This document shows positions 3,901 through 45,667 of a DNA stretch of 64,000 nt, piece by piece. The translations under genes were made by a program, and so were the position numbers. Each line of letters begins with the position of its first letter. The stretch's first letter is position 1. Source of the stretch: Beroe forskalii (Eukaryota; Ctenophora; Nuda; Beroida; Beroidae); NCBI GenBank assembly GCA_011033025.1, contig WFMF01000450.1:78351-142350 (forward strand), in the 5' to 3' direction. A model generated the notes under the pieces. That model saw only the letters and a list, made by a program, of their open reading frames with translations, did no database searches and was not told where the DNA came from.

Positions 3901-3942
3901 AGTGATGTCATTATCAGGGTTTAGTATGGTGAGAAGATGACC
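3901..3942 (+). repeat. CRE/GATA hairpin repeat, copy 1
   Basis: Reads AGTGATGTCATTATCAGGG, then TTTAGTATGGTGAGAAGATG. It matches the family consensus RGTGACGTCATTATCA...TTARNGTRGTGAGTTGATGACG with few mismatches. It lies in noncoding DNA. The terminal TAGGCG arms are absent or decayed. Confidence 0.75.
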
Positions 3943-6900
3943 TGTATTTCCATGTCAGGAGAGGTGTCGTAATGCGTCCATTATCTGTGAGGCGCACCAT
4001 ATCACCGCAGTAATTGTATAATTAGTAGGTCCCACAATGGGGAAGTCACAGGTCAGGAAAATGGCGGGAAAACATACACACAGAGAAGAGAAGGGGAAGG
4101 AGAAGGGAAGAATACAGGGAAGAATGCAGGGAGAGACAGGGGGGAGGTTGTCAAAAGTGGAATTTGGAGCCAAGATGTTCCGGTTACGTGACAGAGTGAA
4201 CACACTGCTTTTCTGGAGTGTGACGACCCTTCTCTTCTCCTGTGTGCTCTTACACACAGTGCTGGTTCCGGTAGACAGCAGAGTGTTTGCAGTAGACACA
4301 CTGATAATACGACAAGTACACTGTCTCCCTTAAGGGACATGACGTAGTGTGTGTCCTTCTCAAGTGGGAACAATGGACCCCTAAAATACTCTTTTCCAGT
4401 AAAAAGGTGTACGTAATGAACATCTTTTCCTGTACACAGGAGTGCGTAATCCCTCGACAGTGGTTCAGAGCAGGATACAATTACAATGTTTGTACCAAAC
4501 TGGCTGATATTGCAATTGTTATTTCTAGACATGACACACATATTACAATTATTGAAGTGCTCCTGTGCAGTTGTTTAAAACTAACATATGTCACATTGGT
4601 GATGTGATGAACAATGCAGTGAAACATTAAATCTAATTACATCTGAAGGTGGAAGAAACAGGAATACGGGCTGTGTTCCTGCCACGTTATGAGATCAGAG
4701 TGTGATCTTATGGTGAACTCACTGAAAGATGACAGGGAAGAGGTTTTGAGGGTTAGTAGTAATTATTTCCAGTCCTTTAACCCTTCAAGTACGAATCCTT
4801 GACAGAGGGGTATTAAGTCCAGACTTTTAGGTACAAGAATTCTTGGCAGCTGCTAAGTTTTTAAACTCAATTTTAAACGTACTATACAGACAAAAAGAGA
4901 TATACGAATACACAGGTATCCTTGCCAACAAAGTGATTACACATGGTGTTTTGTACGCTTGTAGCTCACTACATCGCCTTAAAGCAGCTATTAAGGCACT
5001 TTCATTGTTCATGCCCAACCTGAGCAAAATACAGTTCGTTTTAAGCCACGATGATGGTGTCAGTTTCGGCCAGACAGAAGTCTGGAGGCCCTTTCCAAGA
5101 ACAGACTTTTTGAAATAAGATTTAAGAACTAATTTGCAATTAACTGTTTTACTTGAGTTAGTTTTTTTTCGGGCTCACTTTCGGAATGGACCCCCACAAG
5201 TGTGCATGTAGGTCGGAGGAAAAGCTGTTACAGTGGAAGGTTCGAGAAGAGAATTACTGCAGTGAAGTCTGAAACTTATAAGTTGCTAACACGAAAGAGA
5301 GATATCCTTGTGTTTGGAATGTACGAAATCCAGTATCCTTATTAACACTAATATCACATGTTCAAATGTGATATGGGCTCCCATCCTGAGATTTTATTGA
5401 CGCTAGAGGGGCGGCGCTCAGGAGAGTTTTTACCATTGACGAACTGAATTACAGCAGATCAAATTATATACACTCACACCCCATTTCGTAAACTCGATTA
5501 AGTACACCACCTCTCTCTCGTGATCTAACCATGTACATCCCAACACACAGTGGGGAATTGCATACTTTCATCATATTCCTGGGTGTATGGAAGTGAGGGT
5601 TTCAACTTTCAGAAGTTCAGGTTTCGACAGCAGATGTCCGGAAAATCAGACAAATTACAATATCATGTACCAGACAGGATTACTTTGGTTATTTATTTCG
5701 AAAGTAGACTGTTCAACCAAAACTAGAGTCTAGAATATTAGTAGAGTTTAGAATATTGATATGTCTCATGGATACTTGGAATCAGCCAGGGCCCAGGAAT
5801 CGTTCTTCCCCACAATGTTTTAATTTGAAGTTGGTAGGGTGTCAAATTTGATGAATTGCGATCGGCTGCAGCATCTAGAATCATGTACATTCTACACAGT
5901 GATCTCCTTGCTAATAAACAGCCACAATCCACCTACTCCTTCATCAAATCTATTGCTTACGAAGCTCTAATGCACTATACATGTCATTACATGTGAGGAG
6001 TACTTTTCATAATGTATACATGCGATAGCGTGTGTGACGTGTGTGTGTGTGTAATGCACTCAGAGCCTTCAGTCAGTGCACTCAGTCAGAGGATTTAATT
6101 ATTTTCTACTAATACAACGTGTCCTTTGAAGATCTTAATAAAGCAACCATCATGTCGGAGTATTTTATTGTGATTTCAAGAAGCAGATCCTTTGTATTCA
6201 ATGATTTTCAGAGAAACATTATTCTTTCTTTAAGATACGAGAAAGCCCCAGCCACTATAAAAAAGGTTCTGTAATAGGGTAACGCTGCAGCGTTGCTAGT
6301 ACACTTCTGAGTTTCTGAAGCACAGGTGCGTGAAATGAACTAGAAGTCATAATCAAAGCCCTCTCAACACCAGAGTCCAGCTTTAATGCAGAGAATTGAG
6401 TAGCAGGATAATATATCGACCAATCCGCATTGATTATAATGCCCAAAGAGCAGATCGAAACATGAGTATCGTTTTGATACACTCGAAAGTGTAGGACCAT
6501 TCTACATATTGTCTAGTTCATATTCAATGCATGCATGAATCCTGATCATCTAACGAACACTACCCGAAGTGTATGTTGTATGGTTTGTATCAGAGTACAC
6601 TGATTAGTCTTCACGGTACAGTGGGACGCAGCCGCTGCTGTGAGATTGTTGACAAGTCAGTGACAGGTGTCTAAATCACACAAGTACTCCCAAGGGACAA
6701 ACCCTCACAAACCCTCACCGGAACACACACTTCCCTATTTCACATATTGTTTAACACAGATAGTTTTTAATTTTCTTAAAAGATCCAGAAACCACTTCAA
6801 GTACGATGATAACACTATGAACATAACATTTTTTCAGAACTTTAAAACATAAATCCTTGTGTTTGGAAAGCAGTTAAAGTGCAGGGAGTACCGACAAAGT

Positions 6901-8361
6901 TTACATCATTGCCCAAAGATAAGGGTTGAGTAGGGTTGCACTTGTCAGGTTACATTAACAGACACACCCTACGTCAGATGACATATTATAAAGGAGTACA
7001 GCAGTAATTATAAAGGAGTACAGCATGTTATTATGAAGGAGCATAACAGCCAGGTGAACATGTCACAGAAAACAGGCTGGTTTTTAAAAGCGTGACACTC
7101 TGCACAGACTCCTCCCAGTAATAACTGCATGTCTTACATCACACTGTGTTGGAGGCGGCGCTAAGACGGCGTTAACATGGCAGTAATCCACTGAGGCGGC
7201 ACTTTCAGTGAGAGGGAGGGAGAGTGGCAGAATGGGAAGCCGATATGGCTCCCGAACTTTAAAACAACGCGCAGATCATATTCTCATATTGCAATGCCGA
7301 TATTGGTAGCATGACGAAAGGTTTGTCAAAATGGAAATATGGTCATGTGTCTCAGGACTGTGAGTTTCATTGAAAATTCGAATAATATTCAAATGATATT
7401 CATACAATAACGCATTACTATAATTATTCGGCCTAAAACATCATTCTATCCATCTTTCGTTGAATTTCTCAGAAAACCGAATGTCGGACCGACGTATGAT
7501 TGCTCAATCTAAATGTGCGTTGTAGCTAAGCTTTTCAATTAGCACGCCGTAATTACTGCCGGTTGCCAGGTTATTATAGCTATATTGGAAAATTGCCAAT
7601 CAAAGAGTTTGATTATGTCACAGCCAGTCCAATTAGTGATGAAATAGCTAATTACGTTATCGTGAGACGATTGCTATATTGTAGAAAATGGCTGCAAATC
7701 TACAGCACTCTTTTATTTCCTTCTTTTACAAATTTATGTAAAAGGATTTTAGTAATTTTGTTAAATGAGCTCGGACTCCGTTACTTCTCTTCATATTTTC
7801 AGCTGGTTATTTGTAATTTTGTAAATTAAAATAATGAAAATAATGTTGAGTGTGGCTCTCTGGCTGGCTCACTTTTACATTACATTACCATGGTGGCTTA
7901 ATGCACGACGCAGTGTCAGATAACACAACGTCTGATAACGCAATCTCAGAACCATAATAAGGTCATGCTGGTGACGTAGGAAAATTCTTATGAATTACGA
8001 GTTAAATTTATATTTTAGAGAAAACTTATGCCACTTGGATTTGATTAATTATGAAATTCAAAATGAATTGAAATTAGAATTTCAGAAATATACGGTTCGT
8101 AACAGACGAAACATGCGTCACAGGAGGGATAATTCCGTTCTATTTTGTAATAATATACCGCAAAACTTTTCAAAAACTCGGGACATATAACATATATTTA
8201 TATTATCTCATTTCGGTCTCCTCTTTATAGTACAAATCATCAGAGAGAAAACATCCCAGGAATGTAATTAACCGCTGGTGGTTGCTGATGAATTCCAGCT
8301 CAGTAAGGTATGCCCAAATAAGGGATTCTTCAGAGATTACAGTAACTTAGGCTGCCCTAAG
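3943..8361. other. Long noncoding stretch, no supported gene apart from a weak ORF
   Basis: Mostly AT-rich unique sequence with a purine-rich tract at 4076-4145 and a CA-rich patch. Several 60-90 codon open frames on both strands lack splice context or family resemblance. If the left-edge gene and the 8764-9870 exon belong together, this is intron sequence. I could not find the linking exon(s). Confidence 0.4.
4037..4333 (+). CDS. Weak hypothetical ORF with one predicted membrane segment
   Basis: This open frame of 98 codons has a Lys/Arg/Glu-rich first third and then a hydrophobic stretch (LLFWSVTTLLFSCVLLHTVL, about residues 56-75). An internal ATG at 4174 (context GCCAAGATGTTC) would put the basic RLRDRVN directly before this segment, as in a single-pass signal-anchor protein. 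A possible donor (CAA|GTACAC) lies near 4313. Two other frames on the opposite strand are open across the same bases, so the open frame may be chance. No downstream exon was found. I considered a small signal-peptidase subunit but rejected it. The product is unknown. Confidence 0.15.
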   Translation: MGKSQVRKMAGKHTHREEKGKEKGRIQGRMQGETGGRLSKVEFGAKMFRLRDRVNTLLFWSVTTLLFSCVLLHTVLVPVDSRVFAVDTLIIRQVHCLP

Positions 8362-9870: not shown

Positions 9871-12122
9871 GGTGGCGTCTGGGAGCTCTAATCTACATAG
9901 AATCTAACAAACTACTGTAAGGTAACAACGTTAGGTGAGGTTAATAACAAATTCTTAAATTTCAAAGGATGGGAAAGAAAGCCTGATGCTACGGCGTGCT
10001 TGTTGAAAAAATACTCAAGTATGTGGCATTTGAACTAGGAAGAAGAGGAAATGTTTCAGGTAAGAGACTGGCAGTTATATTTAGACTTGACATTGGGGTG
10101 TAAAGTTTCGAATCACAATAGATTACATTAAAATTCCCATGGAAGATATGAGGTACTACCTAAAACTTTTAAATTCCTTGTCAGAGATAACATTGAACAA
10201 GGCTTTGAAACATCAACAGCCAAGAAAGTTAAAACTTCAAAAGATGTCAATTCGAAAAGTGAGACAATGACGAGAAAACGGATAAAAACGACTCTGACCT
10301 CGTACGCTCAGAGCAGCAAAATCTTTTAAAAATTTCGGAAAAATCAATTTACAATTTCCTATTGAATGCCATAACAATATACAATTACTTAAGAAATTAT
10401 AAAACAAAATAAGTTAAACTGGTAAAACGCTGTGATATCACAACATATTATTATTTTCACGGGGTGTCTGGGTATATTTCTTTGAAGGATAATGCGTATA
10501 CCGCTGCATTGCTACACGGCCCTCTCCTTTCAGGTGTACAAATATAGCACACATTGAATTAAAGATCTCCAATTTCACGAGATACTCAATACTCCCGGGC
10601 TACTTCTAGACTGAGCTTTCAGAGAGGAAAAGGAGGAGCTATGGGGGTGAGAAAACGAGATATCACAGGCACATGATAGATATTGAGAGTGATGTAATTA
10701 TCATAGTTTTATGCAGTGATTTGATAACATCACAAGGGCTATCTTCTATGTGGGGCATGTTTAAGTCCTGATAACGTATAGTGATAGCTCGTATATTGGC
10801 TAATGATAAACAACTGGATTATCAATGTATTGCTGTTGCACTATATCATTATCAGAGCTGATATCGTTTATTGGAGGGGGCTTGTAGGTAATGAAAGCCT
10901 GGATACAATGTGTCAATGTACTATAAAGTGTTTGGATGTATTTGGGTCTAGGAATATTGGATGTATTTATCTATTGACCCTATAGTAATTGTACAATCGT
11001 AATCCATTTTGACTCTTCAGAATTTGAAGAATCAAAATAAAAGCTGTAATTTTGAAGGTATCATTGTGACATATGAGTGGTGGTGCGCATTTATCACACT
11101 CAGGAAGAAAGTAGAAACTACGGAAAACGCAGTCATAAAAGAAAACATCACATCACGTGAAAGAAAATTTAAAAAAATGCCCGACACACTCCATTTCCAA
11201 GTCAAATTATCCCTATCGTGCAATAAACAACACACTGCAGATGACCGCGCGCAGGTACGCTGCGTTTGCTCGCAGTGTACTTATTAAATTCCAGAACTTC
11301 TATCACCCTATTGTCTTGTTGAATTGAGAAAGGAACTCAACACGAAACTGTACCTGAACTGAGTCCAGATGATAATTCGATTTAATGGTTTTTATTTCAA
11401 CCATGTCATGCGCCAATAATAAGAATTAATTTCCATGCGTACTTCTAATAACTTCTTCACGTGAAATTTCAGTAGCTCATTATATCAACATGCCGAGAAT
11501 ATAACAGTGAATATGAACCAGTGAAATTCACACATAAGGAGGCTTGAAAACAAATAAAAATGCTTTAAGCTTCGTTTATTTTTTATGGTTTTTACTGATA
11601 TCAAAGATAGAATCTCTGGGAAGTTTTATTAAACGACTTTCCTACTGATATTTCTAATCATGTGAGATTAAAGTAATATGTCTCGAGCATATTACAAGAG
11701 TAGGACATTTCACGTAGCAGCACTCTAGCAGTTCTATTATACCAAATAAGCGAATGGGAAGGAGTTGTGCAAAGCTGACAAGCTAATTACAGCAGCAGTT
11801 TGAAATTAGCTTTATCGCAGGAAATACGCAGAGGAAATATCGATAGGAATACCAAAGCTTGAATGGGGCGTATCAAATTATGGACCAGATATTGGACAGT
11901 CAGAACTTATTCTTTAACAATGAGATTGAGGTTTGGAGCCGATGACAACAGATAGATCTCGTGATTCAGAAAATAAATGCATCATTCGAGCTGCACCTGA
12001 CAACATGAAAAAGTCATTCCGCATTAGATTTAAATTTCATCACCTTTCTTGAAATGAACCGAAATGACAGAAAATCGCTTACGAAAAACAAAGTACAACT
12101 AAAGCTGTAAACGTGACAGATC
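9871..12122. other. Upstream region of the 8764-9870 gene; noncoding
   Basis: This should hold the 5' UTR, promoter or first intron of the minus-strand gene. The sequence is AT-rich with no recognisable TATA or CpG island. One hairpin repeat of the CRE family lies at 10688-10733. No further gene is supported. A 92-codon plus-strand frame at 11009-11287 has no supporting features. Confidence 0.4.
10688..10733 (+). repeat. CRE/GATA hairpin repeat, copy 2
   Basis: Reads AGTGATGTAATTATCATAG, then a TTTTATGCAGTGATTTGATA core, then ACATCAC. GTGATGT and ACATCAC at the ends are perfect inverted repeats. The middle matches the family in order and spacing. Confidence 0.7.
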
Positions 12123-12161: not shown

Positions 12162-14402
12162 CTACAGGGTCGTCAACTTCTTCCGAAGGCCACCCGACTG
12201 GCTTGACCAATCCAATACAGAGTTGTTGTTAGTTGCAATGTAGCTAGTTACAGGAGGATGGTCAGGGAAAGTCTTGAGGAAGTTACCAAGGCGTACTTTG
12301 AATGCATCCAAGTCGTCAGATACTGTGTTTACATCCTTGGGCAGGAGATTCCATAACTTTGCTCCCGTCACAGCAAAAGATGCATCATACAGCGTTTTAG
12401 CAGATGATTTTGCTCTCCCATGTAGCTTAGGTAGTTTTGCTTTCCAGCCTAGTCTTTCGTTGTAGCTGAACTCCATATTGATGTCATTGGGTACTTTTGT
12501 TGTTAAGGAGTTTCCACGTGTATTGTGATGAATCTCTCACGTCTTCTTTGAAGTGATTGTAATCCAAGGACTTGTAACCGTGCCCAGTAACTCATGTCCT
12601 TTAGGCCACAGATGTGCCTTGTGAAGAAGCGTTGTACATCCTCTATAGCTTTGGTGTCCCCCAGCTTGTGGGGTGCCACAAGGGGCTGCAGTATTCCAGC
12701 TTGCATCGAATGAGAGATTTCCACAGTGTTAGCATCACCGGTGTACTTCGGTCTCTAAATACCCAAGAGCCCATCCTGCCAGTTTTCTAGCTCCAGCAAC
12801 CATCGAGTTTATGTGGGTGGACCAATGATAGTTGGAAGACAGTAAACTCCCAAGTCCTTCACAACATCCTTGGAATCAAGGCTAAAACCCGCTGGAGTGT
12901 TGTAGTTGAACGTGCTAAATGGTAGTTCGTCCAGCCAATTGGGTCTCCCTGCTCTGTAACACAGGTACCAAACTTACCCTCGTGCAAGACCATATTGTTT
13001 TTGTATCGACCAGTCCACAACCTTGTTGAGATCGCTTTGTAGGAGGGTCATTTCAGTCTCCTGGGTGATCGGTGCTGTGAGTCGAGTATCGTCAGCAAAA
13101 CTTGCAGAGGATGCAAAGTCCACGACTTCTTCAAGGTCATTCACGTCAAGGGAGGGAAAAGCAAGGGGCCCAGAACAGTCCCCTGTGGTACTCCACTGGT
13201 AACATCTTCAGCTACAGAGTGTTGACCATCAACAGTTACAATCTGCCTCCTGCCTGAAAGAAAGTCCTTGATCCATTGGTAGAGGCGACCTCCTATGCCA
13301 TAGAACCGGAGCTTCTTCAGAAGTAAACGGTGATCGACCTTGTCAAACGCTTTGGAGAAATCCAGGTAAATCACGTCTGTTTCTATACCCATGGTCATGT
13401 TCCGGACTATGTTGTCGTATTGAGCTAGAAGCTGGGTGAGGCAGCTGCGCCTTTTTCGGAATCCATGTTGTTTTGGATATCAGGAGTTACCTTCTAGGTA
13501 GTCAACCAGCCTGTTCCTTATAAACCTGTTCAAACACCTTTATGATGTGATGTAAGGGAAACTGGGCGATAGTTTTGTGGGTCAGCTTTACTATCTTTTT
13601 TTGTGGATAGGAGTTATAAATTGCTCTTTGAGCATGCTGGGTATTTTCCGTTGGCAAAAGAATGATCCCAAAGCATGTGAATGGGGATGCAGAGATATTG
13701 CTTACATGCCTTGAGTATACATGCAGGGATACATTCGTGGGATGTGGAGGAGTAGGCATCAATCTCGTCAATGGCTTCTACTATGTCGTCCAGTGTAAAA
13801 TCCATGTCGGTGATACTACACGTTGGGGGAGTGAGGTTCTCTGTTGTGTCGCGTATGTCGGGATTTGATGGGTCACTAAACACCGAAACATATTGCTTCT
13901 GAAGGATGTCCGCCATTGTCTTTGGGTCTGTCTGGAGTTCGTTGTTATCATCCCTCAACGGCCCAATATTGCTCTTCAGCTTCGAGAACTTCTTAGCATA
14001 ACTGAAGAAAAACTTTGGATTTGTCTTCACTGCAGTTACAGCCTTTACTTCCTTCCTAGTGAACTCAGTGTCGATTGCATCTCTGATATCGATGCAAAGA
14101 AGGCTGATACTGTCCCTGGTTTGCTGTATTAGAGGAGAGTTGGGGTCACTGGCTTCAATGGCCCTGAGTCTGCATATCTGTTTTCTCATCCTCCGTTTGA
14201 GGACCTGCTTCTTCCTGTTCCTAGGCTTGGGCTTTGCAGTATTGGAGGTGCTAGTTTGCGACTTTTTGGGGCAGTGTTGTAAGGCAATTTGGAGGATGGT
14301 AAGCCTTATGAGTTCCATGAACATTGCACCATCGTCATCACCCTCTAGTAAACATGACTTCTGTAGTCCGTTCCAGTCGATGCCCTGCAAGTCCTCATTC
14401 AT
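12162..14402 (-). pseudogene. LINE reverse transcriptase and linker, frameshifted
   Basis: The first block (14402-13614, 262 codons) is the linker and fingers region, with KKQVLKRRMRKQICRLRAIE and FFFSYAKKFSKLKSNIGPLR typical of CR1/Jockey-like elements. The palm follows in pieces. GFRKRRSCLTQLLAQYD is near 13460-13410. Motif A (YLDFSKAFDKVDH) and motif B (SGVPQGTVLGPLLF) lie in 13398-13141. After a frameshift, motif C reads FADD near 13100 instead of the usual YADD. The C-terminal thumb region is split between 12724-12503 and 12476-12162 and includes KLWNLLPKDVN, FLKTFPDHPP and SVLDW, all usual for this clade. In life it would copy the element RNA at nicked DNA. Here it is dead. Confidence 0.85.
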
Positions 14403-14499
14403 CTTGTCGAAGTCGCCCTCAAAGCAGTTGAGGGATTTGAATGAGTAGGGGTCGATATGTAGAACCCCTGTGGTGAGTTGGTAGGTGCCCAGTCGATTG

Positions 14500-15224
14500 C
14501 AGATGTCACAGTCACTATGTCATGGTCAGAGATGGGTGTTTTTTCACAGTCGACGTCACAAATGTAGTTAGGGGCAATTAGTCAGTACGAGATCAAGAGT
14601 ATTGTTACCTCTAGTAGGCCTAGTGACAACCTGACTCAAGAAGTTCCTACCCATGAAGTCAAAAAGCCGCTGTGCAGGCGTGACTCCTCTCGCTAACCCT
14701 TGTGAGTGGTCGATACAGTGAGTTGTCCAGTCTACAACTGGCAAGTTAAAGTCACCAGTTATGTACAAGTCATGGTGCTTCAGTTTCTGAGCTCCGTCGA
14801 GGTATTGCTGGACCTCGCTAAACTGGTAAACTTAGCGTCGTTAGCAGTGGGTGGTCTGTAAATTGTTACAAGTATCGTGTCAATACTGGCTAGCGTGCAC
14901 ATTACAGCCTCACAGACGCCGTTATCAAAGACTTCAGTCCTCGATATTGGTAAACTGTCATGTACGTAAAGTATGACACCCCCACACTTGATTTTCTCGG
15001 TCAGCCCGAATGGAAGTATATCCCTCAATAGCTACCTGACTGTCTGAGTGGTAAGATTTAAGCCAGGATTCAGTTATACTGATAAAGGGTATAAACTTGT
15101 TACAGTTCTCAAGGATTGTATCAACGAGGTATGGTAGCTTCCAACGCTGAGAACTGCTTGCCTCGGGTGTAATACCCTGGGCATTTAGCAGAATGAAGGA
15201 GCTTGGTTCGCCCACTGGTACCAT
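14500..15224 (-). pseudogene. LINE endonuclease domain (EEP family), frameshifted
   Basis: The conserved order of an APE-like endonuclease is visible across three frames: LLNAQGI at the start (metal-binding Asn region), FISITESWL (catalytic Glu), GGVILYVHDSLPI, VTIYRPP, then GDFNLPVVDW (Asp/Asn active site), NTLDLVLT, and PISDHDIVT (the SDH motif) near 14520. All catalytic landmarks are recognisable but lie in different frames, so the protein cannot be made. In intact elements this domain nicks the target site to prime reverse transcription. Confidence 0.8.
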
Positions 15225-16300: not shown

Positions 16301-17385
16301 AATTAATGAAGGCAAACAATACACTGCAAGGAAGAGAGAAAACAGAGGAGGAGGAGGCTGTACAAACAATGGTTTCCTGGGTCTCACTACGTAAGGGATC
16401 ATTAATCCCCCAGTCAATTTAGGAGAGCCACTCAGACTTCCTCCAACAACGTTAGGAGTGGTAGACGTTAACTCTACACTCTACAGACTACTCAACAGCA
16501 GGGATTATACAGACTACAGCAAAGATTAGTGTGTAGTGGGAGCATGTACCTGACTCAGAGAGGTAGACAGGATGAAGATAGTGGGGGGGGGTGCGGTAAG
16601 TAATCGTGGTAGTAAGGATGGGGAATGAGGGAGCGTGGTAAGTTATTTGGGGGGCCTGGAAATGGCAAGTGAGTTGGTGTGATAAGCGATGGCAAGTCAG
16701 GAGGCTTATGGCAAGGAAAGGGGCGTGGTAAGGAAAGGGGGTGTGATTTGTAATGATGGCGAGATGTGGCAATTAAGAAGGAAAAAGTGAGGAGAACAGA
16801 AGGATCATGGTCGAGTACAGACTACCTGCTTACCTGAGTACCTGGAGTATTATAGGTACTGAGAGAATACCCACTGTGTTTTAATTAACACCTACTAACA
16901 TTATACTGCATGTACACAGATGGTATAGTTTTACATGCTCGATATCCCTCATGTTTGTAGGGCTGGTTATTCCTTATATGAGCATATTGTAAACTACGAT
17001 AGCTGTAAGCATAATAACATGTTAGGAGCAGGCAGCTATGCGTCTATACGTTATCAATTCACAACTCCAAGCTATGAGGATGACATCCTGAATCACTCCC
17101 GACTACCTGAAACACTCCCGACCACCAAAATCACTCTCCGTAGAGGTCGATAGCTTGAATCACTCTCGATACTTCGATAACCTAAATCACTCTCGCTGAT
17201 GATATGCTTAGAAATACGTACGGGTAAACAGAACCGAGATGTCTAATAGGGCACATATAAGAAGACAATTGAGAAATGTGTACTGGGAAAACACCATGTA
17301 GAAGTTGGTCACGCTGAGAAATGAGGAGCGTCCTATGATAGGAAATGAGCGCGAGTGTGTGATCTCCTCTCTCTACAAACCTTTA
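16301..17385. other. Noncoding stretch with degenerate GTGGTAAG repeats
   Basis: At about 16570-16760 short imperfect repeats of GTGGTAAG(T/G) mixed with G runs are visible. The rest is unique and AT-rich. No gene is supported. Confidence 0.4.
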
Positions 17386-17576
17386 ATCCACCCAATTTTT
17401 GCAAAAATTCCAGCTTACCTGGAAATTTTTTATAACAATTCATTAACTATTTCAGGGGCTAGTACTGGGTCTCAGGAGCCCAGAAAAAAAGTTTACCAAC
17501 CTACCCCCATGGGGGGCGGTGGTTTTTGGGCCACGCCCTTTTTATATTTATACGCTATGTCGTTTTATCATAACTC

Positions 17577-18436
17577 GGCTTAGGAAGGTCGTAGAGACTT
17601 CATCTTGGGCTCAAACGAATCGCAACAAACATGTTTTTATACAATTGTTGACACCAATATGCCGTAGAACCCTCAGGGAAGAAGTTATGGGCCAAAAACC
17701 ATTTTCGGAGTAGTCTGCGGACCATTATTCGGGCTATATTGGTTTCTTGGCTCAGGAAGGTCGTAGAGGCTTTATCTTGGGCGCAAAAGAATCGCAACAG
17801 CCGTGTTATTATACAATTGTTGACACCAATATGCCGTAGAACCCTCAGGGAAGAAGTAATGGACCAAAAACCATCTTCAGAGTAGTCTGCGAACCATTAT
17901 TTGGGCTATATTGGTATCTTGGCTCAGGAAGGTCGTAGAGGCTTTATCTTGGGCGCAAAAGAATCGCAACAGCCGTGTTTTTATACAATTGTTGACTCCA
18001 ATATGCCGTAGAACTCTCAGGGAAGAAGCTATGGGCCAAAAACCATTTTCGGAGTAGTCCGCGAACCATTATTTGGGCTATATTGGTACCTTGGCTCAGG
18101 AAGGTCGTAGAGGCTTTATCTTTGGCGCAAATGAATCGAAGCGACCATGTTTTTATTCGATTGTCGTCACAAATATTCTCGAAAGCTCTCAGGAAAGAAG
18201 TTATGGGCCAAAAACCACTTTTCAGGGTACTTGCAACCCATTCTTTGGGGTATAGTGGAATCTTGGCGGAGGAAGCTCATAGAACTCAAGAAGCTTCATT
18301 TTGAACTCAAGTGAATCACAATGGCAATGTTTTTATTTGATTGTTGCCACAAATATGCTTGTAAACCCTCAGGAAAGAAGTTATGGATCGAAACCATGTT
18401 TCTACCTACCCTTGAGTCGAAATACCAATATATCCC
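17577..18436 (+). repeat. 172-bp tandem repeat, left arm
   Basis: Five successive units start with GGCTCAGGAAGGTCGTAGAG or variants and share ATACAATTGTTGACACCAAT and GGGAAGAAGTTATGGGCC. Units 2-4 are nearly identical. Units 1 and 5, at the ends, are more diverged, as expected if inner units are homogenised. Confidence 0.85.
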
Positions 18437-18484
18437 GAGCAATGGGTATACCCATTGCTCGGGATATATTGGTATTTCGACTCA
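18413..18484. repeat. 72-bp perfect palindrome
   Basis: The 36-nt half beginning TGAGTCGAAATACCAATATA is followed directly by its exact reverse complement, ending TTGGTATTTCGACTCA, with the centre GGGTA|TACCC at 18448/18449. The opposite arm has only one half of this sequence (around 19165-19210). The palindrome is therefore a left-arm-specific event. Confidence 0.9.
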
Positions 18485-19074
18485 TGACCTCAGGTGGGCT
18501 CAGGTAGTTCCTAGTGACCCAAAACCCATGATTTCATGGAGCTTTTGAAGTTTTGTTCGTAGGTAAGTAGTTATTCACTCACTGTCCTACAGCTTTAGGT
18601 CTAGGACATTATCCTACAGCTTTAGCTTTAACAATAGGGAACGATTCATTGGTCTCTTCTGACCAATCATGTTCTTATTTGACATGGTAGAAATCCAGAA
18701 CTTAATAATACCATGATATAAGCATCTGCACTCTTTTCCCTTCACTTCAGATTCTGTTCATTCCTCAACAACTAACAAAGTTTTACACAAACATAAATTT
18801 TAGCATACTTAGTTATTTAGCATACTTAGGTATCTATTAATACTTTAAGCTTTGGAGCTTAAATGGTTGAAATTTGTAGTCACCTTATAATTTAAAGACA
18901 TTTGGTGTCTCTATGAAAGAAAATAGATGCACTTGCCTGTCACTGACAAGCTGACACGTCTTGTTCATCCAGCTGCCGACACCAGCTGCTTCACAGCTGG
19001 AGTCAACAGGCCTAGCAGCACTAGGCAAATAAGCACCAACAGAATATATATGAATACTTCACATCAAGAATGGG

Positions 19075-20027
19075 TTGCGGGTACCCTGAAAAATGGTTTG
19101 TGGCCACTATGAAATGAAATCGCGTTTTTTGTCTATAGGAATTGCCTGAGCCCGCCTGAGTTCATGAGTCGAAGTACCAATTTAAAATCCCGAGCAATGG
19201 GTTATGGGCAGCCAAAAACATGGTTTTGATCCATACCTTCTTTCCTGAGGGTTTTAAAGCATATTTGTGGCAGCAGTCAAATAAAAACATTGCCAAATTT
19301 GCGAGCAATTTCATTTTAAGATGAATCTTCCACGAGCTTCCCCAGCCAAGATACCACTATAACCCAAAGAATGGGTTGTGAGTACTCTGAAAAATGATTT
19401 TTGGCCCATAACATCTTCCCTGAGAGTTTTTGAGTATATTGGAGTCAACAATTGTATAAAAATACGGCTGTTGCGATTCTTTTGCGCCCAAGATAAAGCC
19501 TCTACTACCTTCCTGAGCCAAGATACCAATATAGCCCAAATAATGGTTCACGGACTACTCCGAAAATGGTTTTTGGCCCATAACTTCTTCCCTGAGAGTT
19601 CTACGGCATATTGGAGTTAACAATTGTATAAAAACACGGCTGTTGCGATTCTTTTGCGCCCAAGATAAAGCCTCTACGACCTTCCTGAGCCAAGATACCA
19701 ATATAGCCTAAGTAATGGTTCGCAGACTACTCCGAAAATGGTTTTTGGCCCATAACATCTTCCCTGAGAGTTCTACGGCATATTGGAGTCAACAATTGTA
19801 TAAAAACACGGCTGTTGCGATTCTTTTGCGCCCAAGATAAAGCTTCTACGACCTTCCTGAGCCAAGATACCAATATAGCCCAAATAATGGTCAGCGGACT
19901 ACTCCGAAAATGGTTTTTGGCCCATAACGTCTTCCCTGAGGGTTCTACGGCATATTGGTGTCAACAATTGTATAAAAACATGTTTGTTGCGATTCGTTTG
20001 AGCCCAAAATGAAGTCTCTACGACCTT
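19075..20027 (-). repeat. 172-bp tandem repeat, right arm (inverted)
   Basis: The reverse complement of the left-arm array, with four to five units. Repeated blocks such as CAAGATAAAGCCTCTACGAC and TCTACGGCATATTGGAGT occur near 19490-19610, 19660-19790 and 19840-19960. Units match the left arm closely. Confidence 0.82.
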
Positions 20028-20219
20028 CCTAAGCCGAGTTATGAAAAAACGACATAGCGTATAAATATAAAAAAGGGCGTGGCCCAAAAAACCACCGCCC
20101 CCATGGGGTAGGTTGGTAAACTTTTTTTTCTGGGCTCCTGAGACCCAGTAATAGCCCCTGAAATAGTTAATGAATTGTTATAAAAAATTTCCAGGTCATT
20201 GCAAAAATCGGGTGGATTA

Positions 20220-23116: not shown

Positions 23117-23185
23117 AATAGGCGAGTGGAGGGGGTGTAATGATCATTGTTTTAAGGGCAGATTTAATCTCGTCAAACGCCTACT
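23117..23185. repeat. Divergent CRE-family hairpin with TAGGCG termini
   Basis: Bounded by AATAGGCG on the left and CGCCTACTT on the right. The interior GTGTAATGATCATTGTTTTA and GGGCAGATTTAATCTCGTCA keep the family order but the CRE core has decayed. Intact arms with a decayed core suggest the arms are part of the element. Confidence 0.45.
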
Positions 23186-24863: not shown

Positions 24864-25015
24864 AGTGAACATTCTTATAACTTTATAAGCATTCGAATTG
24901 TGAAGTAGCGTTTTTAATGAACTGACAAAATCTTCAGGACCCTTTTCTTCGTCATTACCCCAACCAAACCCTATTTCTCTGCGATCTTTTCTTTCTACTT
25001 CTCTAGCACCAACAC
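24864..25015 (-). CDS. Possible isolated exon, unidentified
   Basis: A strong acceptor (TGTGTGTGTTACAG, ending at 25016) is followed by the only open frame, entering in phase 1: VGAREVERKDRREIGFGWGN, then DEEKGPEDFVSSLKTLLHNS and NAYKVIRMFT. It can leave through ACT|GTATGA in phase 0, or terminate at TGA 24858-24860. The composition looks like a charged, helical, cytosolic protein. No neighbouring exon with matching phase was confirmed, and the TG repeat could itself mimic an acceptor. Function unknown. Confidence 0.3.
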
Positions 25016-25254
25016 CTGTAACACACACATCTACACACAGACACACCATCCCCTCTAACTATTCTCAATGCTACCTGGACCAACACACAGGTGCACCTAC
25101 ACATAATATCACATGATACTGTATTCCTGAGACCCGACTCACATATTATATAATGTAATTACACGCAATATTATTACTACGAGACACACAGCATACGAGA
25201 CACACTGCTGTTATCAGGGGAGGAATGCCTCGTAATTACGATGCTACCCATCAC

Positions 25255-27201: not shown

Positions 27202-27260
27202 GAGATAGGCGGCGTGTCGTCGTCAATAGAACATGTTAATCTATGATAATGACGTCACTC
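27202..27260 (-). repeat. CRE/GATA hairpin repeat, copy 3
   Basis: Read on the minus strand: AGTGACGTCATTATCATAG, then ATTAACATGTTC, TATTGACGACGACACGCC and GCCTATCTC. It contains the full CRE palindrome TGACGTCA and the terminal GCCTAT motif. Confidence 0.75.
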
Positions 27261-29376: not shown

Positions 29377-29402
29377 GACACACACACACACACACACACA
29401 CA
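29377..29402. repeat. (CA)n microsatellite
   Basis: Uninterrupted CA dinucleotide run of about 26 bp. Confidence 0.95.
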
Positions 29403-29597
29403 TAAAAACACCAGATGGTAGTATTTAGAATGTTTGGCACACAGTTCAAGGAACACACAGAACAGCTCTAGAGAGAGGGTGGGTCTGTGTTATACACATT
29501 GACAACAGATGAGAGAGATGGTGTACTATATAACAAAGAGGCGACCTGGATCAGAAGAAGTAGAGAGAAGAAGAGGAGGAGAGGAGTAGAGAGGAGC

Positions 29598-29717
<120 letters not shown>

Positions 29718-30402
29718 GACTCATGTGTGTGAGCATTAGACCGTGTACAGAGCGCGGGAAAAGGACAAAAAGGAGGAATATAGTGGGGAGAAGTAATGGA
29801 AGCGAAGAGAGAAAAGATGTAATGGAAGGCATAATGTAGAGAAGGGGAGTAATGGAAAAGAGAAGTAATGGAAGAGAGGAAAGAGAGAAATGGAAGAGAG
29901 GGAGGGGGAGACGAGAGAGAAGGAGTGTATAGCGTAACGCGGCAAAGAGTAAAGGCAACAGGGAAGGGGCGAAGGGAGCTGTAGCATACAAAGAAAAGGG
30001 AGAAAGAAAGCAAACGAAGGACAAACGCTCGGAAAGTGGCAATACCAGAATTCAGAAAAAATGGAAAATTTCGGCGTGAAAACTTGAAAATAATCGATCG
30101 CAGTAAACAAAGTGAAATGAAACGTTCGAAGTTCAGACAAATGAAAAGTTCAAAGTAAAGATGTGTCTAATATAATGAAATAAAGCAAATTGCAATAATT
30201 ATAACACCAGTTTACCGACAACAAGTACCTCGCCAACAACTGCATGTAATAATACGGATGACATCAAAACTTGGAGTTGTGTTAATATACCGCTGCAGGA
30301 TATATACTGTGTTATAGACTGACAACACGTAGGTTCATGCTGTCGGTGAGCTAACAACCCAGAAACAACGCCGTACTTCTGAAATGTGTGTATGTGGGTC
30401 GT

Positions 30403-30450
30403 TGTGTCGTCATTATCAGGCGTTAGAATAGTGAGTTGATGACGTAAACC
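30403..30450 (+). repeat. CRE/GATA hairpin repeat, copy 4
   Basis: GTGTCGTCATTATCAGGCG, then TTAGAATAGTGAGTTGATGA and CGTAAACCC. The flanks GTGGGTCGTT and GTAAACCCAC form short additional inverted ends. Confidence 0.78.
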
Positions 30451-33003: not shown

Positions 33004-35574
33004 CAGCAGGAAATTAGCTGGGTAACTGTTATATTTGCAGTTAATACGTCAACTAAATACCGAATCTAAACAATATGTACGTAATGCTGTTGACTGACAT
33101 GGTTCAAATGAGCCAGTTCATTAGCTGACGGGATTAAAGCGCAGCGAAGGCAAGAGACGCTGTACAGTACACATAGGACTATAATACAAGGATGCTGGAT
33201 GATTTCCATAAGTAATGAATATACTAGGAGGTCAAAAATAAAGAATATTATGATTATATTCTGGCAACGATCCAATATGTACGCGGTACGCTCAGATACG
33301 GTCTTATGCTACGACTTGTATGGATTTTCTGTCTGATTTTGTTTACTAAAGAAGGAAAGTGAACTGCAAGAGTAGAAGGGTACAGTACAAGCGATTTATC
33401 AATCATTGGTCAACAGATTGATAGACCGCATGAGCTGGGAATGAGAGGCGAAAGAAGACATCAAAAGAGCAAAAGCAATGAACAGTGAAAACCATATTCA
33501 AGGGTTCAGGGAAAATGAGTTGATGGAACACTTGCAAACCTATGTTATCAGCATGAGATTGATGGGGAATGCACCACAGGTTGAGGTATGACGTATTATG
33601 AAGCGCTGTGATGGCTCCGGCATTACGGATTGTAATAATTTACGGCGAACTCGTCACACTAAAAAGCAAAAACAACAGGCAAACCACTTTTGTTTTAGCG
33701 AATGTGTAAATTGCGGTTACCATCCTTACGTAATACAAAGTAACATCACAAAACATACCTCAATCGCAGCTCAAGCAATGATTGGAATTCGGATGACATA
33801 GAGAAGTGCTGCTTACTGTGAAAAGGAACAGAGGGAATGATGAGGTGCTTCTACCCTCCCTACTAATGGTACCTTGAGAGGGTGATGTCATGCGGTGCAT
33901 ATTATAATCATGCGAGACAGTGGCGAGTATCATGGCATGATAGCCCCTCAGGATATGGGATGATGGTTTCATAGCTCATCGGATAAAACATAGAGGGAAG
34001 AAACAGCTAATTTGATACGGTCTCATTCCAAAAACAAAGCTACTGGACATCAAAACAACTTGAGTAAAAACGACGAGTAGTAGTGCATAGTTGAAGGTTC
34101 AATGCAAAACAAAGGGGAATTTGACAAACTCACACTTGATTAAAAGCCCCGCCCATCCTATATCACTGATACATGTCAAAGAAGGAGATACAAGACACTA
34201 GATACAAACACACAAAGTGTTTATACACGGGGATCTCAACAAAACACAAACAAAAGGGAAGTCTTTGAGGGAGGGAAGCTAACATGGCCGGCAGGAGGTA
34301 AATCCATTTTAAAAGGACAAACTATTCAAGTGATATATAATTTGATTTCTTTGAATAACACCGGAAACTATACACCTTCATTTACATATACTGTTACGTC
34401 GTGGAAATCGCATTAATAAGTTAAAGCTGGGGTGAAAGTTAAGTGCTTGATCCGTAGTAAGTGGTCAGAGAGAAAAGTCACGTGACTGGACTGTGTCACG
34501 TGGTAACCTGCCCGGTTACCATGGTAACTATTTTAATAAGTTTACAGACACCTTGCAATAATAGGGTGGTCTTCAGCACTCATCAATGGTACCATACCTC
34601 TGTAAACTTCCATCGCAAAATTGTCGCAAATGCAACAGCATGGATTTTGATAAGCATTACCGTTAAACTTTAGTTAGGTTTCAAAGTTTAATAAATCGGT
34701 TTGGATGAAAGAGTCGGTATTCGACTATGCGAAATCCACCAACACAGCCCAAAGAAGTGCCGTTGACAAGGTTGCACGTGATCAGTGCGTTTGCACGTGC
34801 AGTCAAGAGTGTCGGTGTCGATTAGTGAAACTCCCTAGCTCCCTAGAAACATTACCACTCACCACTATATGGTATACAAGTACCCATCACTAAACTTCTA
34901 CTGTTTCAAAGAGTTTCCATCTAGTTATATCTTGTTTTCAATTTCATTGTAAGTTCATACATTAACGGGGATAATTCCAGTCACCTGCCCAAGCAAATTT
35001 CACACGATTCAGGAGGCTACATCGGCAAGAAAATTTGATTTCTAACAGATGCAGAGTTTTATGTTAAGGGGACATAATCATGTAATGGGAGTCTCCATCA
35101 AAAATTAAAATGCATAGCATGCTTCAATCAAACAAGCTGCTTGAAAAGTTAAAACAATGCACAAGATATTTAGCAAGATACATTCAGAATTGAGAATTTA
35201 ACATCATTAAACACAGCATTTAAAAAGTTTTAAAGCACAAGTCTCAACATTCAACGTTCCAGAACATTGAGGTTATCATAAGTAAGGCTGCTTAATAAAA
35301 GTTCCTTTTTACCTAAAAAGGCTCGCACTACTCAATTCTACTCCTTTTCATTCATTAGTTTGGTATTAATTTCAGCCTGATGATTTCAGATAGCTACGTT
35401 TAATTCACGTTGATTTTTGCAAAATTTTCCGTTGAAAGCGATTGTTTTGATTGTGAGTTATTTAACTGTTTTCATACCGTTTGCTGCTTGACCATCTGTT
35501 TTCTGTAACAAGCACGTTTCACACAGAGGGCCCCAGTTTTCGTGAGCTCATATCTGACTTAAACCGCGCGCGCG
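33004..35574. other. Noncoding stretch with a palindromic E-box cluster
   Basis: Unique AT-rich DNA. A possible start ATGGCCGGCAGGAG|GTAAAT at about 34284 has no supporting downstream exon. A Cys-rich plus-strand 62-codon frame at 34705-34893 is unsupported. Confidence 0.3.
34476..34528. promoter_or_regulatory. Clustered CACGTG and GGTAACC palindromes
   Basis: Within 53 bp lie AGTCACGTGACT (34476-34487, a perfect palindrome), a second CACGTG (34497-34502), GGTAACC/GGTTACC as inverted halves and the 14-bp palindrome GTTACCATGGTAAC (34515-34528). CACGTG is the classical E-box bound by bHLH factors in animals. A regulatory role is inference. Confidence 0.35.
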
Positions 35575-35633
35575 AAAAATAGGCGATTCACTGTCATCAA
35601 CTTACTACATTTCGCTATGATAATGACGTCATC
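35575..35633 (-). repeat. CRE/GATA hairpin repeat, copy 5
   Basis: Minus strand: GATGACGTCATTATCATAG, then CGAAATGTAGTAAGTTGATG and ACAGTGAATCGCCTATTTTT. It is complete, with the CGCCTATTT end, and is preceded by an alternating CGCGCGCGCG run (35564-35574). Confidence 0.85.
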
Positions 35634-36452
35634 TTAGCGTACGCGGCCTGCGTACGTGCGCATTCTGTGTGTGAGTACATTACGTGCATACGAACAACAA
35701 CAACAACAAACTCAGGAGCGAATCTATTGGATCCTCTGTGCTAACACTGTGTTATACAAGTGACACTTACGAGCATGAAATCTCAAATCATCGGGATGTT
35801 GCAGGGTTAGGGATGCATGTAACACCCGACATTACATAATATGGGTTCCATGGAATGTGAAAGCGGTATGTACCTAGACATGTATCGGTGGGTACGTCGG
35901 TGGGTACCTATAGTACGTTCAGTATACTGAACGTGCTATGGAAGTATGGAAACAAATCTGATCTTCAATCCGATCAAACATTGTGGTAACATGGGGCAAG
36001 ATATGGAATCTGATTTGAGTAACCAAGGGACGAAACTAGCACAGAAAATAAAATGAAACCTCACGTTTAGTAGCGAGGTTTTAGAAAACAACTGGAGTTG
36101 GCACTGAGTACTACAGATCAAAGAAAGAAAGGTAGAGAGAGAAAGGGATAAGTTTTAAACAAGGGTTTTACAACACCTCTCTGCAGTACACGTTAGATAA
36201 TTCACTGATAATACGCTATCATTCCCTCCCCCTATCATAATATCAAGTCCCGTACAGTTCCGTCAGACTTCCAGCCAGCTACTTCCAGCAGGAATTTAAT
36301 CGAGACAAAGAGACTGAGATAAAGAGAAACTTTGGGAAGATATTTCAGAGCATGCAGGTTGTTATGGTCGTGTTAACACGGTGTTATACCAGCATGGTAA
36401 CACCCTGCAGCCACATTATCATAGGACCCGGACTAACTTGGAGTGGGTAAAC

Positions 36453-36494
36453 GTTACGTCACTATTAGGAGTTACAATAATGAGTTACTGACGC
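36453..36494 (+). repeat. CRE/GATA hairpin repeat, copy 6
   Basis: GTTACGTCACTATTAGGAG, then TTACAATAATGAGTTACTGA and CG. It aligns base for base with the consensus except for scattered substitutions. Confidence 0.65.
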
Positions 36495-40356: not shown

Positions 40357-40426
40357 AATAGGCGCTCATCAGTGACGACATTATCATGGTTTAGAGTGGT
40401 GAGTTGATGAGGTAGAAACGCCTATT
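40357..40426 (+). repeat. CRE/GATA hairpin repeat, copy 7, with complete terminal inverted repeats
   Basis: Starts AATAGGCG (40357-40364) and ends CGCCTATT (40419-40426), a perfect 8-bp inverted repeat. Between them lie AGTGACGACATTATCATGG, TTTAGAGTGGTGAGTTGATG and AGGTAGAAA. At 70 bp this is the best candidate for a full-length family member in this orientation. Confidence 0.85.
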
Positions 40427-42019
40427 CTCCCTCTGTTACTGCTCTAATAACAACGCGGTCCACACAGGGCGTGTCGACATGCAGTGGAGTGATGGCAGAC
40501 TCATCGGTTCCAAGGAGTGAGGGAGTAAATAACACTATGTGAGGAGGGAGTAAACACAATGTGGAACAGGCAGTCTCCATTGTTTTATTGTTGCCAGTGA
40601 AGCAGTGGGGGAGTAGGACTAGCAGGGGCAGAGAGCAGGATGACTGGAAAATGGCGACAAGGAGACAGACTGATAAGCAGAATTCATCTGAATGTCTATA
40701 TACGATTCAAGGAGCGATAAGTAAGACAAAAGAGATAGTAGGATACGAAATGAACAGTGATGGTGAAGCGCTCTGTTATTGATCAATCACTCCTGGCAAA
40801 GTTCCAGCATCCTCCCATGAACATATGAAGTAGATGAATTGACTTGATTATTCCATGGTTCTTGCATGACTGGAAACATCCCGCCTGACTGTGAACTATT
40901 GACGCATATTAGTATTACTGTATGCTTGGAGATGGTGGGGCCGGGTCATCTAGTTTCAGGTTGTGAAATTAATCAAATCTTGTTGCTCCCCCACGTAATG
41001 TACTGTTAAGCAAGTAGACTAGAAACAACAGGGTATTGTGCTATTTAGAACCAGGTAATAGCGGTTACAGAAGGGGCCAAAAACATGAAATTGAACGTGG
41101 AACTGCTGGGAAATTCTATTAATTTTTATTATTTCCTGTTTACAAAGTTTTAAATGTAGTTCAAAATAAGCAAAATATAGACGACTAAGAAATGAGATTT
41201 GCATAATGAAGGTTTAAAAGTATGGCTTCTCATCAAAATTATAATTATCTGGATATTTCTCGAAATGACAGTGTCGAAACTGAATATCGAAATTCGTTAT
41301 ATAATCGAAAAGCGAACATACTTGCTCACTTGGACGAATTAGACAGTCGAAAAACGAAATGAATATAACGAAAAATATCCAACATAACTGAAAACATACT
41401 TGATTTTTATTAAGGAATAAAAAAGTTGATGAAGGAATACTCAGCCTAAACGCAAGTATTATTACGGCTTACTACTAAGTAGTTTAGCAGTTTCTTGCCG
41501 TGTATACCGTAGTGATGACACCACAGCGAGCAAATACAATCTAACACAGTCGGGTGCATGGAATTCTTACGAAATTTCAAGCAATTATTGAAACAAATGA
41601 AACTTCTCTGAACAGACCAACAAAAACTACTCTGAATACTCAGACTTGAAAGAGAAGCGGGAGAGTTGTTTCAAAAGAGAAGAGTGAGAAGGAGAACAGA
41701 GGATGGGAGGAGAACTAGGCTGCATGTGCAGAACACTGTCTTTCCACATTAGCCGCCCCTGATCATCACCAATTCCCACTATTTTCCCTGACAACTCCCT
41801 CACTCCTCCTCGCCTGCTTTTCACCCTGACATGTTGTGTGTGTCAGAGAGTGATGTGTCTAATGTAGCTCGACTGAGGAGAGTGCAATCTGTTGGCACTT
41901 CACTGAGGGTTTTACAGCTCAGTAATTACCTGTTAAGTTGCCCTGTTTTCCTGCAGAACTACTCCTTGCAGCTAATAAGTGACACTACGTGAGGTACTAC
42001 AGTAAACGCCGCGCACGAG
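40427..42019. other. Noncoding stretch
   Basis: AT-rich with no supported exon. The 73-codon plus-strand frame at 40561-40782 is unsupported. Confidence 0.3.
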
Positions 42020-42076
42020 AAATAGGCGCTTCAACGTCATCAACTCACTACATCATGATATGATAATGACGTCATC
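42020..42076 (-). repeat. CRE/GATA hairpin repeat, copy 8
   Basis: Minus strand: GATGACGTCATTATCATATC, then ATGATGTAGTGAGTTGATGA and CGTTGAAGCGCCTATTTC. Complete, with the CGCCTATTT end, and flanked by GCGCAC and GCGCGC sequence. Confidence 0.88.
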
Positions 42077-42387
42077 CTATCCGCCAATTTCTCGCAAGGT
42101 TTGGTATGGTGTACGTGACAGGCGAGCTGCGCGCTGAAATAAGGCGCGGACAGTGAAATGACACTTAATAAAATGACACTTTTAATAATGTGAACTGTCA
42201 CATCAAACCATCTAGTTTCACATTCATCAAGGAAATCAGTGTTACCAATCACTATAAAATGTGAACTTTTAAAGGGACGATTCACAAAAAACACGGAATA
42301 ATGGCTAAGTACAACTCCCTCCTACTTAGTACTCAACACCAGTGGGTTTATCTCCAGTCAACACAGCCACTTACAAGTAGTGCAAAC

Positions 42388-43727: not shown

Positions 43728-43771
43728 GAGTGATGTCATGATGAGGGGTTAGAGTGGGGTGTTGATGACGA
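43728..43771 (+). repeat. CRE/GATA hairpin repeat, copy 9
   Basis: GAGTGATGTCATGATGAGGG, then GTTAGAGTGGGGTGTTGATG and ACG. The left arm has TGATG where the consensus has TTATC. Confidence 0.7.
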
Positions 43772-44470: not shown

Positions 44471-44853
44471 TGACAGCAATTAGGAGAGGGAACGTGACAG
44501 AGCAACAACCTCACAAGGAAGTGTATGACCCCACTGAAGCAACTAACAAGGAAGGACAAGGACCGTGTAACAGAGGAACAAGAAATGGACATCCCCCGAC
44601 CTACAGTCTAGAAAGAACAAGCACATCATATTCTGACACATGAGTAAGTAGCGGTGTGTGAGCGGCTGCTAAAAGAGAGAAAGAGAGGGAAACTGAGAAA
44701 CCTGAAACAGGCCGAACTCTCAAAGTTCATATTAGCACTCCCTAACAAACTGCCAAGTGTTTGAAGTGGCAGGAAGTGCTCAAGCAGCTGACAAAATGTG
44801 AGTAATTCTACCTGACAGAACGCAGTCACGCTCGAGTTAACATGTTGGTAAAC

Positions 44854-44894
44854 ATAACGTCATTCTCAGGGTTTGAACTGGTCAATCATTGACA
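44854..44894 (+). repeat. CRE/GATA hairpin repeat, copy 10
   Basis: ATAACGTCATTCTCAGGG, then TTTGAACTGGTCAATCATTG and ACAC. It matches the consensus through ACGTCATTNTCAGGGTTT. The right arm is diverged. Confidence 0.6.
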
Positions 44895-45610
44895 CAGGAT
44901 GGTCGGTTTAACTTCAGAGATGGTTGGTTTAATAACTTCAGAGAGCTCTGTAAGATGAGGGGTGGAGCTGAGCTAGCCGGCATGTCGGAAGATATGGGAA
45001 ACACACAAGGTAGATGTATCTAAGGGCACGTTTAGTGCTGCTGAAACAATCTGTTTGAGTGACAGATTAGCACAGTTCATACCTTAAAACCAGGTGTGAG
45101 AGGGTGTGTGTGAGTGTGTGTGAGTGTGTGTGTGTGTTTGTTGGTATGTGACATGTGTGTTCTGTGTTCTAAGTATGTATGTAATTGTGTTTTATTTTTG
45201 TTTTGTTTTACTTTTGTATTATCCATGATAGGCGGGCTTGTGTCGGCTGAAATAGCTTATTGTATCCAAAATCCAGCATATGGTCCCAAATGTAACAGAT
45301 GAATGACAGCTTGTTTTCCAGTTTATGAGGAAGACCTTTATCTAGTCTACTTCAAAAAGATAGGTCCTGATAGATGCTGATGCCTGCTAATATGACAGCC
45401 TTCAGACTCTGATTATTTGGATTATTTGGATAATTATATTCGGAAGAACCTCAGCACAATTACAGTTAGTTTTCACAGAGCGCTAACAGTAGGTCCTATA
45501 ATTAAAACAAACAAGGATTACCTAACTGATTCGTTAATCCTAAGATGCAGTCACTGTGTAAGGTGTTTTACCAACTTGAAGGGTAACAAGCAACTCCACT
45601 AAGTCCTAAG

Positions 45611-45667
45611 AATAGGAGGTTAAACGTCATCACTTCACAACTTTAACCCCTGATAATGACGTCATCT
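45611..45667 (-). repeat. CRE/GATA hairpin repeat, copy 11
   Basis: Minus strand: AAGATGACGTCATTATCAGG, then GGTTAAAGTTGTGAAGTGAT and GACGTTTAACCTCCTATT. Both arms are intact and the CCTATT end has one change from CGCCTATT. It is followed on the plus strand by GATCGCGCGCGCAG. Confidence 0.82.

Follow-up and report, generated by a model that had tools for sequence, protein, structure and literature searches.

A likely family of TA-flanked miniature inverted-repeat elements with a paired cAMP-response-element core in Beroe forskalii

Copies of the repeat in the window and in the genome

A stretch of 64,000 nucleotides of Beroe forskalii DNA (assembly GCA_011033025.1, contig WFMF01000450.1, positions 78,351 to 142,350 of the forward strand), hereafter the window, contains twelve copies of a short dispersed repeat built on TGACGTCA, which we take to be the cAMP-response element (CRE) recognised by CREB/ATF factors. 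An earlier note on this DNA had reported at least 11 copies in both orientations. The motif is recognisable at all 11 positions, both orientations occur, and scanning with a 43-column profile added a twelfth copy. The scan covered 264 kb, made up of the window and 20 loci, with L012 among these chosen because it bears copies; it gave 52 matches, 12 of them inside the window, against 0 in reversed decoys. Two weaker window matches (23131 and 27248, scores 17-18) were left uncounted. The window copies, with terminal inverted repeats abbreviated as TIR and copy types A and B described below, are as follows.

3901-3943, + strand: copy, core only, with the type B-like spacer GGGTTTAGTATGG (profile scan)
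10688-10730, + strand: diverged copy, core only (profile scan)
17048-17090, - strand: twelfth copy, diverged core, absent from the earlier note (profile scan)
27217-27259, - strand: copy whose left CRE block is exact and whose right TIR survives as the remnant CGCCGCCTAT (profile scan, nhmmer)
30403-30445, + strand: copy with a well-kept core and unrecognisable TIRs (profile scan)
35559-35639, - strand: copy with the right TIR kept (AAAAATAGGCG, read on the + strand), core at 35591-35633 (nhmmer, E 5.8e-21)
36452-36494, + strand: strongly diverged copy (profile scan)
40357-40426, + strand: copy with both inner TIR stubs, AATAGGCG/CGCCTATT, core at 40371-40413 (profile scan, nhmmer)
42003-42101, - strand: the most complete copy of the window, with both TIRs, core at 42034-42076 (nhmmer, E 1.4e-27)
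43729-43771, + strand: type B-like copy, core only (profile scan)
44853-44895, + strand: strongly diverged copy (profile scan)
45596-45695, - strand: copy whose left CRE is exact, with a remnant of one TIR, core at 45624-45666 (nhmmer, E 8e-14)

The perfect ends described earlier for the copy at 40357-40426 are indeed there. The consensus holds as a motif at every one of the 11 listed positions, whereas the form in which it had been written is idealised: each copy differs from the 43-mer at 2 to 13 positions, one of the 11 (27202) has the 16-mer RGTGACGTCATTATCA without mismatch, and four (27202, 35575, 42020 and 45611) have the 14-mer TGACGTCATTATCA so.

The earlier note had proposed counting the repeat genome-wide. 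This was done by exact-string searches of the 216-Mb genome, with reversed strings as controls. The core 14-mer TGACGTCATTATCA was found 7,719 times (control, 3), the 16-mer RGTGACGTCATTATCA 2,686 times (control, 1) and the spaced pair TGACGTCATTATCA-N12-16-AGTTGATGACG 779 times (control, 0); counted by eye, the spacer length of the pair was 15 in all but 7 among the matches listed. A 14-mer of the TIR occurs 850 times (control, 0), the left TIR followed by six nucleotides and the core at 243 sites (control, 0), and the right core joined to the right TIR at 148 sites, all exact; in 123 elements both 14-bp TIR cores are exact and lie 48-54 bp apart. Exact matches numbered 0 in viral and 0 in prokaryote contigs. 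A set of 26 loci (225 kb), taken at positions not chosen for copies, yielded 24 matches above 20 bits, with at least one match in 10 of the loci. Extrapolation gives about 23,000 copies genome-wide (18,000 to 30,000 depending on the threshold), and the copies are clustered. The genome count predicts 10.3 exact cores for these loci and the window together, and 10 were found, so that the sample looks representative.

Element anatomy, insertion and tandem arrays

The anatomy was read from slices around exact-core copies, 60 matches being shown. The intact form is a non-coding fold-back of about 101 bp with TA on each side, comprising 27-bp TIRs, short linkers and a 43-bp middle. In idealised form the TIR reads (TA)AACGCCGCGCRCGAGAAATAGGCGG, with its complement at the other end, and the middle reads RRTGACGTCATTATCA-N15-AGTTGATGACGT, which places two CRE-type sites 35 bp apart. 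The size of 45-70 bp in the earlier note fits the surviving core with TIR stubs, but not the full element. Type A comprises 30 copies with clear ends and a 15-bp spacer starting ATAGC or ATATC; its idealised consensus is TA-AACGCCGCGC(A/G)CGAGAAATAGGCGG-linker-TGACGTCATTATCA-N15-AGTTGATGACG-linker-CCGCCTATTTCTCGTGCGCGGCGTT-TA, with the outer TIR positions conserved only about half in the 30 copies. The remaining 27 copies, type B, are a mixed group with GGGTTTARAATGGTG as the commonest spacer and mostly decayed ends. Both inner TIRs were present within two mismatches in 20 of the 60 exact-core copies, the left one only in 3, the right one only in 3 and neither in 34.

In type A copies, which were not selected for TA, the dinucleotide occupies a constant left offset in 14 of the 30 and a constant right offset likewise in 14, compared with a background TA frequency of 0.072; at the same offsets, the 19 type A copies with both TIRs have it in 13 (left) and 12 (right). 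Twelve clean-end copies were picked from 20 for measuring the TA-to-TA distance, with the nearest TA within 8 bp taken and L087 left out. The distance was exactly 101 bp in 8 of the 11 measured copies and 96, 97 and 99 bp in the others. The repeats are thus short, dispersed in both orientations and of high copy number, with TIRs at a fixed distance and too little length for a transposase gene, as in miniature inverted-repeat transposable elements (MITEs); the head-to-tail arrangement of a satellite is seen in a minority of copies. The copies are likely members of one TA-flanked MITE family. Two copies with a truncated right TIR, L053 (C37) and L039 (C1:341298-341597), are flanked by apparent direct repeats, CATACACAGTCAATTA and CAACCATTA, which by eye are longer than TA; these are possibly aberrant insertions.

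To look for element-free sites, the two flanks of each of 11 type A copies were joined and used as queries. For one of the 11, L052 (C14), element-free matches run across the junction at C156:200509-200589 and C825:477690-477770 with 74% identity, and C347 and C783 match one flank only. The 97-bp L052 element sits between CAA and GCGG of a host repeat; at that point the empty copies show three bases that cannot be aligned. The comparison shows the insertion of a discrete unit. In the family TA stands on both sides of the element, but the L052 paralogues are too diverged to tell a duplicated TA from a longer word. Among the type B or TIR-poor copies examined in the same way, the flanks of L059 and L061 recur elsewhere, spaced as though the element were still present. 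The suggestion of the earlier note that the family is a tiny MITE is borne out by the TIRs, the TA at both ends, the fixed length, the very high copy number and the element-free paralogous site. Mobilisation would have been in trans, by a TA-targeting transposase of Tc1/mariner-like type, a candidate drawn from the TA ends. Stowaway-type (Tc1/mariner) MITEs have TA as their target. The elements described here are similarly short, abundant and non-coding, and they appear to differ from the Stowaway type in TIR sequence.

TGACGT is present as a direct repeat at both ends of the core, 35 bp apart. Since it is shared by both CRE sites, the middle can form 35-bp tandem arrays. Such head-to-tail arrays occur at many places (C163:422339-422928, C77:428745-429041 and C88:171907-172016), each with its own spacer variant, and exact array junctions number 566 genome-wide (control, 0). 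L044 and L055 are composites, in which two units are followed by the right TIR. The arrays would stem from slippage at these direct repeats of the CRE, or from unequal exchange between them, which would account for both period and content. In the part of the Xenopus account available (PMC12628747), the internal sequence of the Xstir and miDNA4 MITEs, the latter a Tc1/mariner element, is also described in tandem arrays and MITE-array composites. The likeness lies in a short inverted-repeat element whose internal sequence forms arrays and composites. Compared by description in that part, the present family differs in its CRE-to-CRE unit with a 35-bp period and in a core that outlasts the TIRs in dispersed single copies.

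Retention of the core and its possible causes

Decay along the element was compared by scoring the identity of each block in matches found with that block masked (25-29 matches per block), over 289 kb consisting of the window with its 12 copies and the 26 loci not picked for copies. The left CRE scored 0.88, the right CRE 0.75 and the spacer 0.61, against 0.23-0.27 for random sequence. The right and left inner TIRs scored 0.51 and 0.34, the outer TIRs 0.33 and 0.38, and the linkers 0.34 and 0.35. Neutral decay was simulated with substitutions only, all copies being born with TIRs, with and without fivefold CpG decay, and passed through the same detection; the TIR and the left CRE stayed within 0.06 of each other in 10 of 10 settings. 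Neither detection bias nor CpG loss alone, at the fivefold rate, yields the contrast between core and TIRs.

Selection from either side gave a similar picture. In all sampled loci, sites selected by the TIR (at most one mismatch) kept the core in 6 of 8 cases, and those selected by a core half kept the TIR in 8 of 63; leaving aside the three loci picked for copies, the figures are 3 of 4 and 4 of 36. An exact core at the standard linker accompanies 32 of 50 elements with both TIRs exact, among the matches listed, and 246 of the 850 exact TIRs in the genome have an exact partner. Among 74 profile matches, a TIR at 10/13 or better was found on the left in 7 and on the right in 11 (controls 0, 0 and 1). 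No TIR at 9/13 was found in 45 of the 74, whose left CRE block nevertheless averages 0.84 identity; the figure of 45 is rough because ten of the 74 matches score 20 or less and a few of the 45 resemble other repeats. The CpG of the left CRE is retained in 48 of 64 copies. The CRE named in the earlier note is accordingly real as a motif and is kept in old copies; CREB/ATF and GATA factors would be its candidate binders.

The best explanation of the whole, and probably the right one, is a TA-flanked MITE that was mobilised in trans and whose paired-CRE core has been retained as predicted protein-binding DNA. For the contrast between core and TIRs, constraint on a bound 43-bp module would be the simplest single reading. 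That the contrast reflects such constraint on a predicted protein-binding module, most simply paired CRE sites for basic leucine zipper (bZIP) proteins of CREB/ATF type, has about an even chance of being correct. Dead insertions would then remain in place for a host factor to dock on.

Several results weigh against this explanation. The paralogues of L052 being too diverged, the flanking TA may belong to the element itself. The empty-site check proposed earlier, run here on paralogous loci, succeeded for L052 and failed for all 23 type B or TIR-poor copies (18 slices and 5 window copies), in a search that scored only the best candidates. No autonomous partner or transposase was found, no genome-wide search having been made for one, and a TIR pair 1.4 kb apart (L098), considered as an autonomous element, turned out to be a cluster of small copies. 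The arms of 24 type B copies resemble each other slightly more within a copy (7.71) than between copies (7.15), with 14 of 300 permutations as high; hence their TIRs are not wholly gone. The spacer score of 0.61 lies within the 0.54-0.65 of neutral simulations of fairly young copies, so that retention extends beyond the two CREs, as would be expected of a long footprint but equally of copies that never had TIRs. TIRs that bear indels are scored too low by gapless comparison and by the indel-free simulation, although shift-tolerant tests agree with the result.

As the chief alternative, many type B copies would have lacked TIRs from the start. The family would then be an ordinary MITE with no host function of the core, and the asymmetry would come from old, differently ended type B elements and from TIR-less copies shed by the 35-bp arrays. 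We consider this unlikely, though it fares best among the alternatives. The 34 of 60 exact-core copies lacking both inner TIRs, the arrays at many places with their 566 exact junctions, the composites L044 and L055 and the retention of the spacer together with the CREs are all in its favour. Exact array junctions, however, amount to just 7% of exact cores (566 of 7,719). In TIR-less matches the mean information is 0.19 and 0.14 next to the core and drops to 0.05-0.06 at greater distance, and this faint remainder of the family flanks means that at least some of them once had TIRs. Moreover, no alternative TIR was detected in the 33 TIR-less copies above 20 bits (own-arm score 7.39 against 7.23 across copies, 79 of 300 permutations as high).

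A stronger claim than constraint is that the MITE family was domesticated wholesale, thousands of insertions keeping the 43-bp paired-CRE module under purifying selection after the loss of their ends. This is doubtful, and so, to the same degree, is its corollary of a genome-wide set of putative regulatory or architectural docking sites in a ctenophore-like, early-branching animal. A close known case is the placozoan Mutator element, whose TIR carries a motif of chromatin-loop promoters (PMC12221973): as far as the available text goes, it too is a transposon-borne motif of an early-branching animal with a proposed domestication. There the motif is part of the TIR, whereas in the present family, judged from sequence, it is the inner core that survives and the TIRs that disappear.

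The same work bears on another possibility, that the 43-bp middle is the long footprint of an architectural zinc-finger protein at chromatin-loop anchors and not a pair of bZIP sites. Spacer sequence and length are kept besides the CREs, as such a footprint would require. Loop anchors of the ctenophore M. leidyi have a GC-rich motif with two CpGs, found in more than 75% of anchors and bound by CTEP1/CTEP2 (PMC12221973), and this motif, with the placozoan Mutator TIR, lends the idea some precedent in the part of the source available. The ctenophore motif is described as GC-rich, which the present core is not, a comparison made by description alone, and we regard the footprint as improbable.

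A conserved RNA hairpin or small-RNA source is a still poorer candidate, with very little probability. The type A consensus does fold as one long hairpin (-68.3 kcal/mol), and type A TIR arms exceed shuffled ones in pairing (0.66 against 0.60, shuffle maximum 0.62) and in compensatory cells (51 against a mean of 39.5, maximum 54; inner 14 pairs, 16 against 10.4, maximum 16). Young inverted repeats would show such an excess in any case, and folding is common to all elements of inverted-repeat form. The conserved RNA structural module offered in the earlier note finds no support in the core, whose stem shows 4 compensatory cells (shuffle mean, 5.1) and pairing of 0.73 (shuffled, 0.74); type B arms likewise show no excess (41 against 45.2 cells, pairing 0.42 against 0.41). 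There is no Rfam match at gathering score within the window. Finally, a chance cluster of CRE-like words is refuted by the counts of 7,719 against 3 and 779 against 0 and has practically no claim to be considered.

Genomic surroundings and significance

The MITE family is one of several carriers of the CRE. Over the 289 kb, TGACGTCA was observed 41 times against 4.8 expected and is the third most over-represented palindromic 8-mer; 18 of the 41 sites lie inside the family and 23 outside it. Other repeats have it too, some twice per unit (L014 7884-8303, L019 6934-7102, L028 5000-6226 and L022 5701-5720), and the CRE may be favoured in repeats here or captured by them. In the same sequences, CGCGCGCG and GCGCGCGC are more over-represented than TGACGTCA, with 26 occurrences each against about 2 expected.

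The open reading frames (ORFs) of the window, judged from the ORF list and Pfam scans of 16 ORFs, hold only reverse transcriptase and endonuclease pieces. Fragments of two non-LTR-type retroelements lie at 13144-14831 (-) and 49350-49913 (+), with RVT_1 matches at E 1.8e-13 and 1.7e-15; at 14571-14831 an endonuclease match stays below the cut-off. A fold-back at 17417-20196 has 801-nt arms, 91% complementary and about 1 kb apart, made of 172-bp tandem repeats. Tandem arrays of 38-bp and 46-bp units occupy 46867-48858; a poly-T block and the 38-bp array are found again at a distance of about 1.0-1.4 kb, leading into a reverse-transcriptase ORF pair. The GC-content is about 40%, compared with 39.1% in M. 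leidyi (PMC11797021). Mitochondrial contig C1134 carries a divergent, T-rich COX1, read with TGA as Trp and AGA as Arg, the AGA falling at what we take to be a conserved Arg. These features of COX1, together with the GC-content, suggest a ctenophore. COX3 is located on this contig at 3326-4027, about 1.8 kb after COX1, a distance that differs from the COX1-COX3 order of Mnemiopsis and Bolinopsis in the available part of PMC9585324.

MITEs with factor sites and MITE-derived satellites are already known. In Brassicaceae, E2F sites were multiplied by MITEs and other repeats (PMC12595863, as far as the text is available), which resembles the present case in that a defined factor motif is spread by such elements; the difference is that of a plant with E2F against an animal with two predicted CRE sites in a fixed array. 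The MITE family described here was not met in literature searches, which covered titles and abstract starts, with Repbase and Dfam outside their scope; in an exact-string literature search with five strings, 11 papers contained one of them, in each case GTTGATGACGT and never a core string.

Even as plain MITEs, the copies account for part of the TGACGTCA excess (18 of 41), and they show a simple route from transposon to satellite by way of a motif that each end of the core carries. Judged from sequence, the family may also have seeded the genome with many putative protein-docking sites. Should the core be under selection, a single small transposon would have spread thousands of similar control modules, each with two sites, through an animal genome, and their spacing of 35 bp would predict which protein complex reads them.

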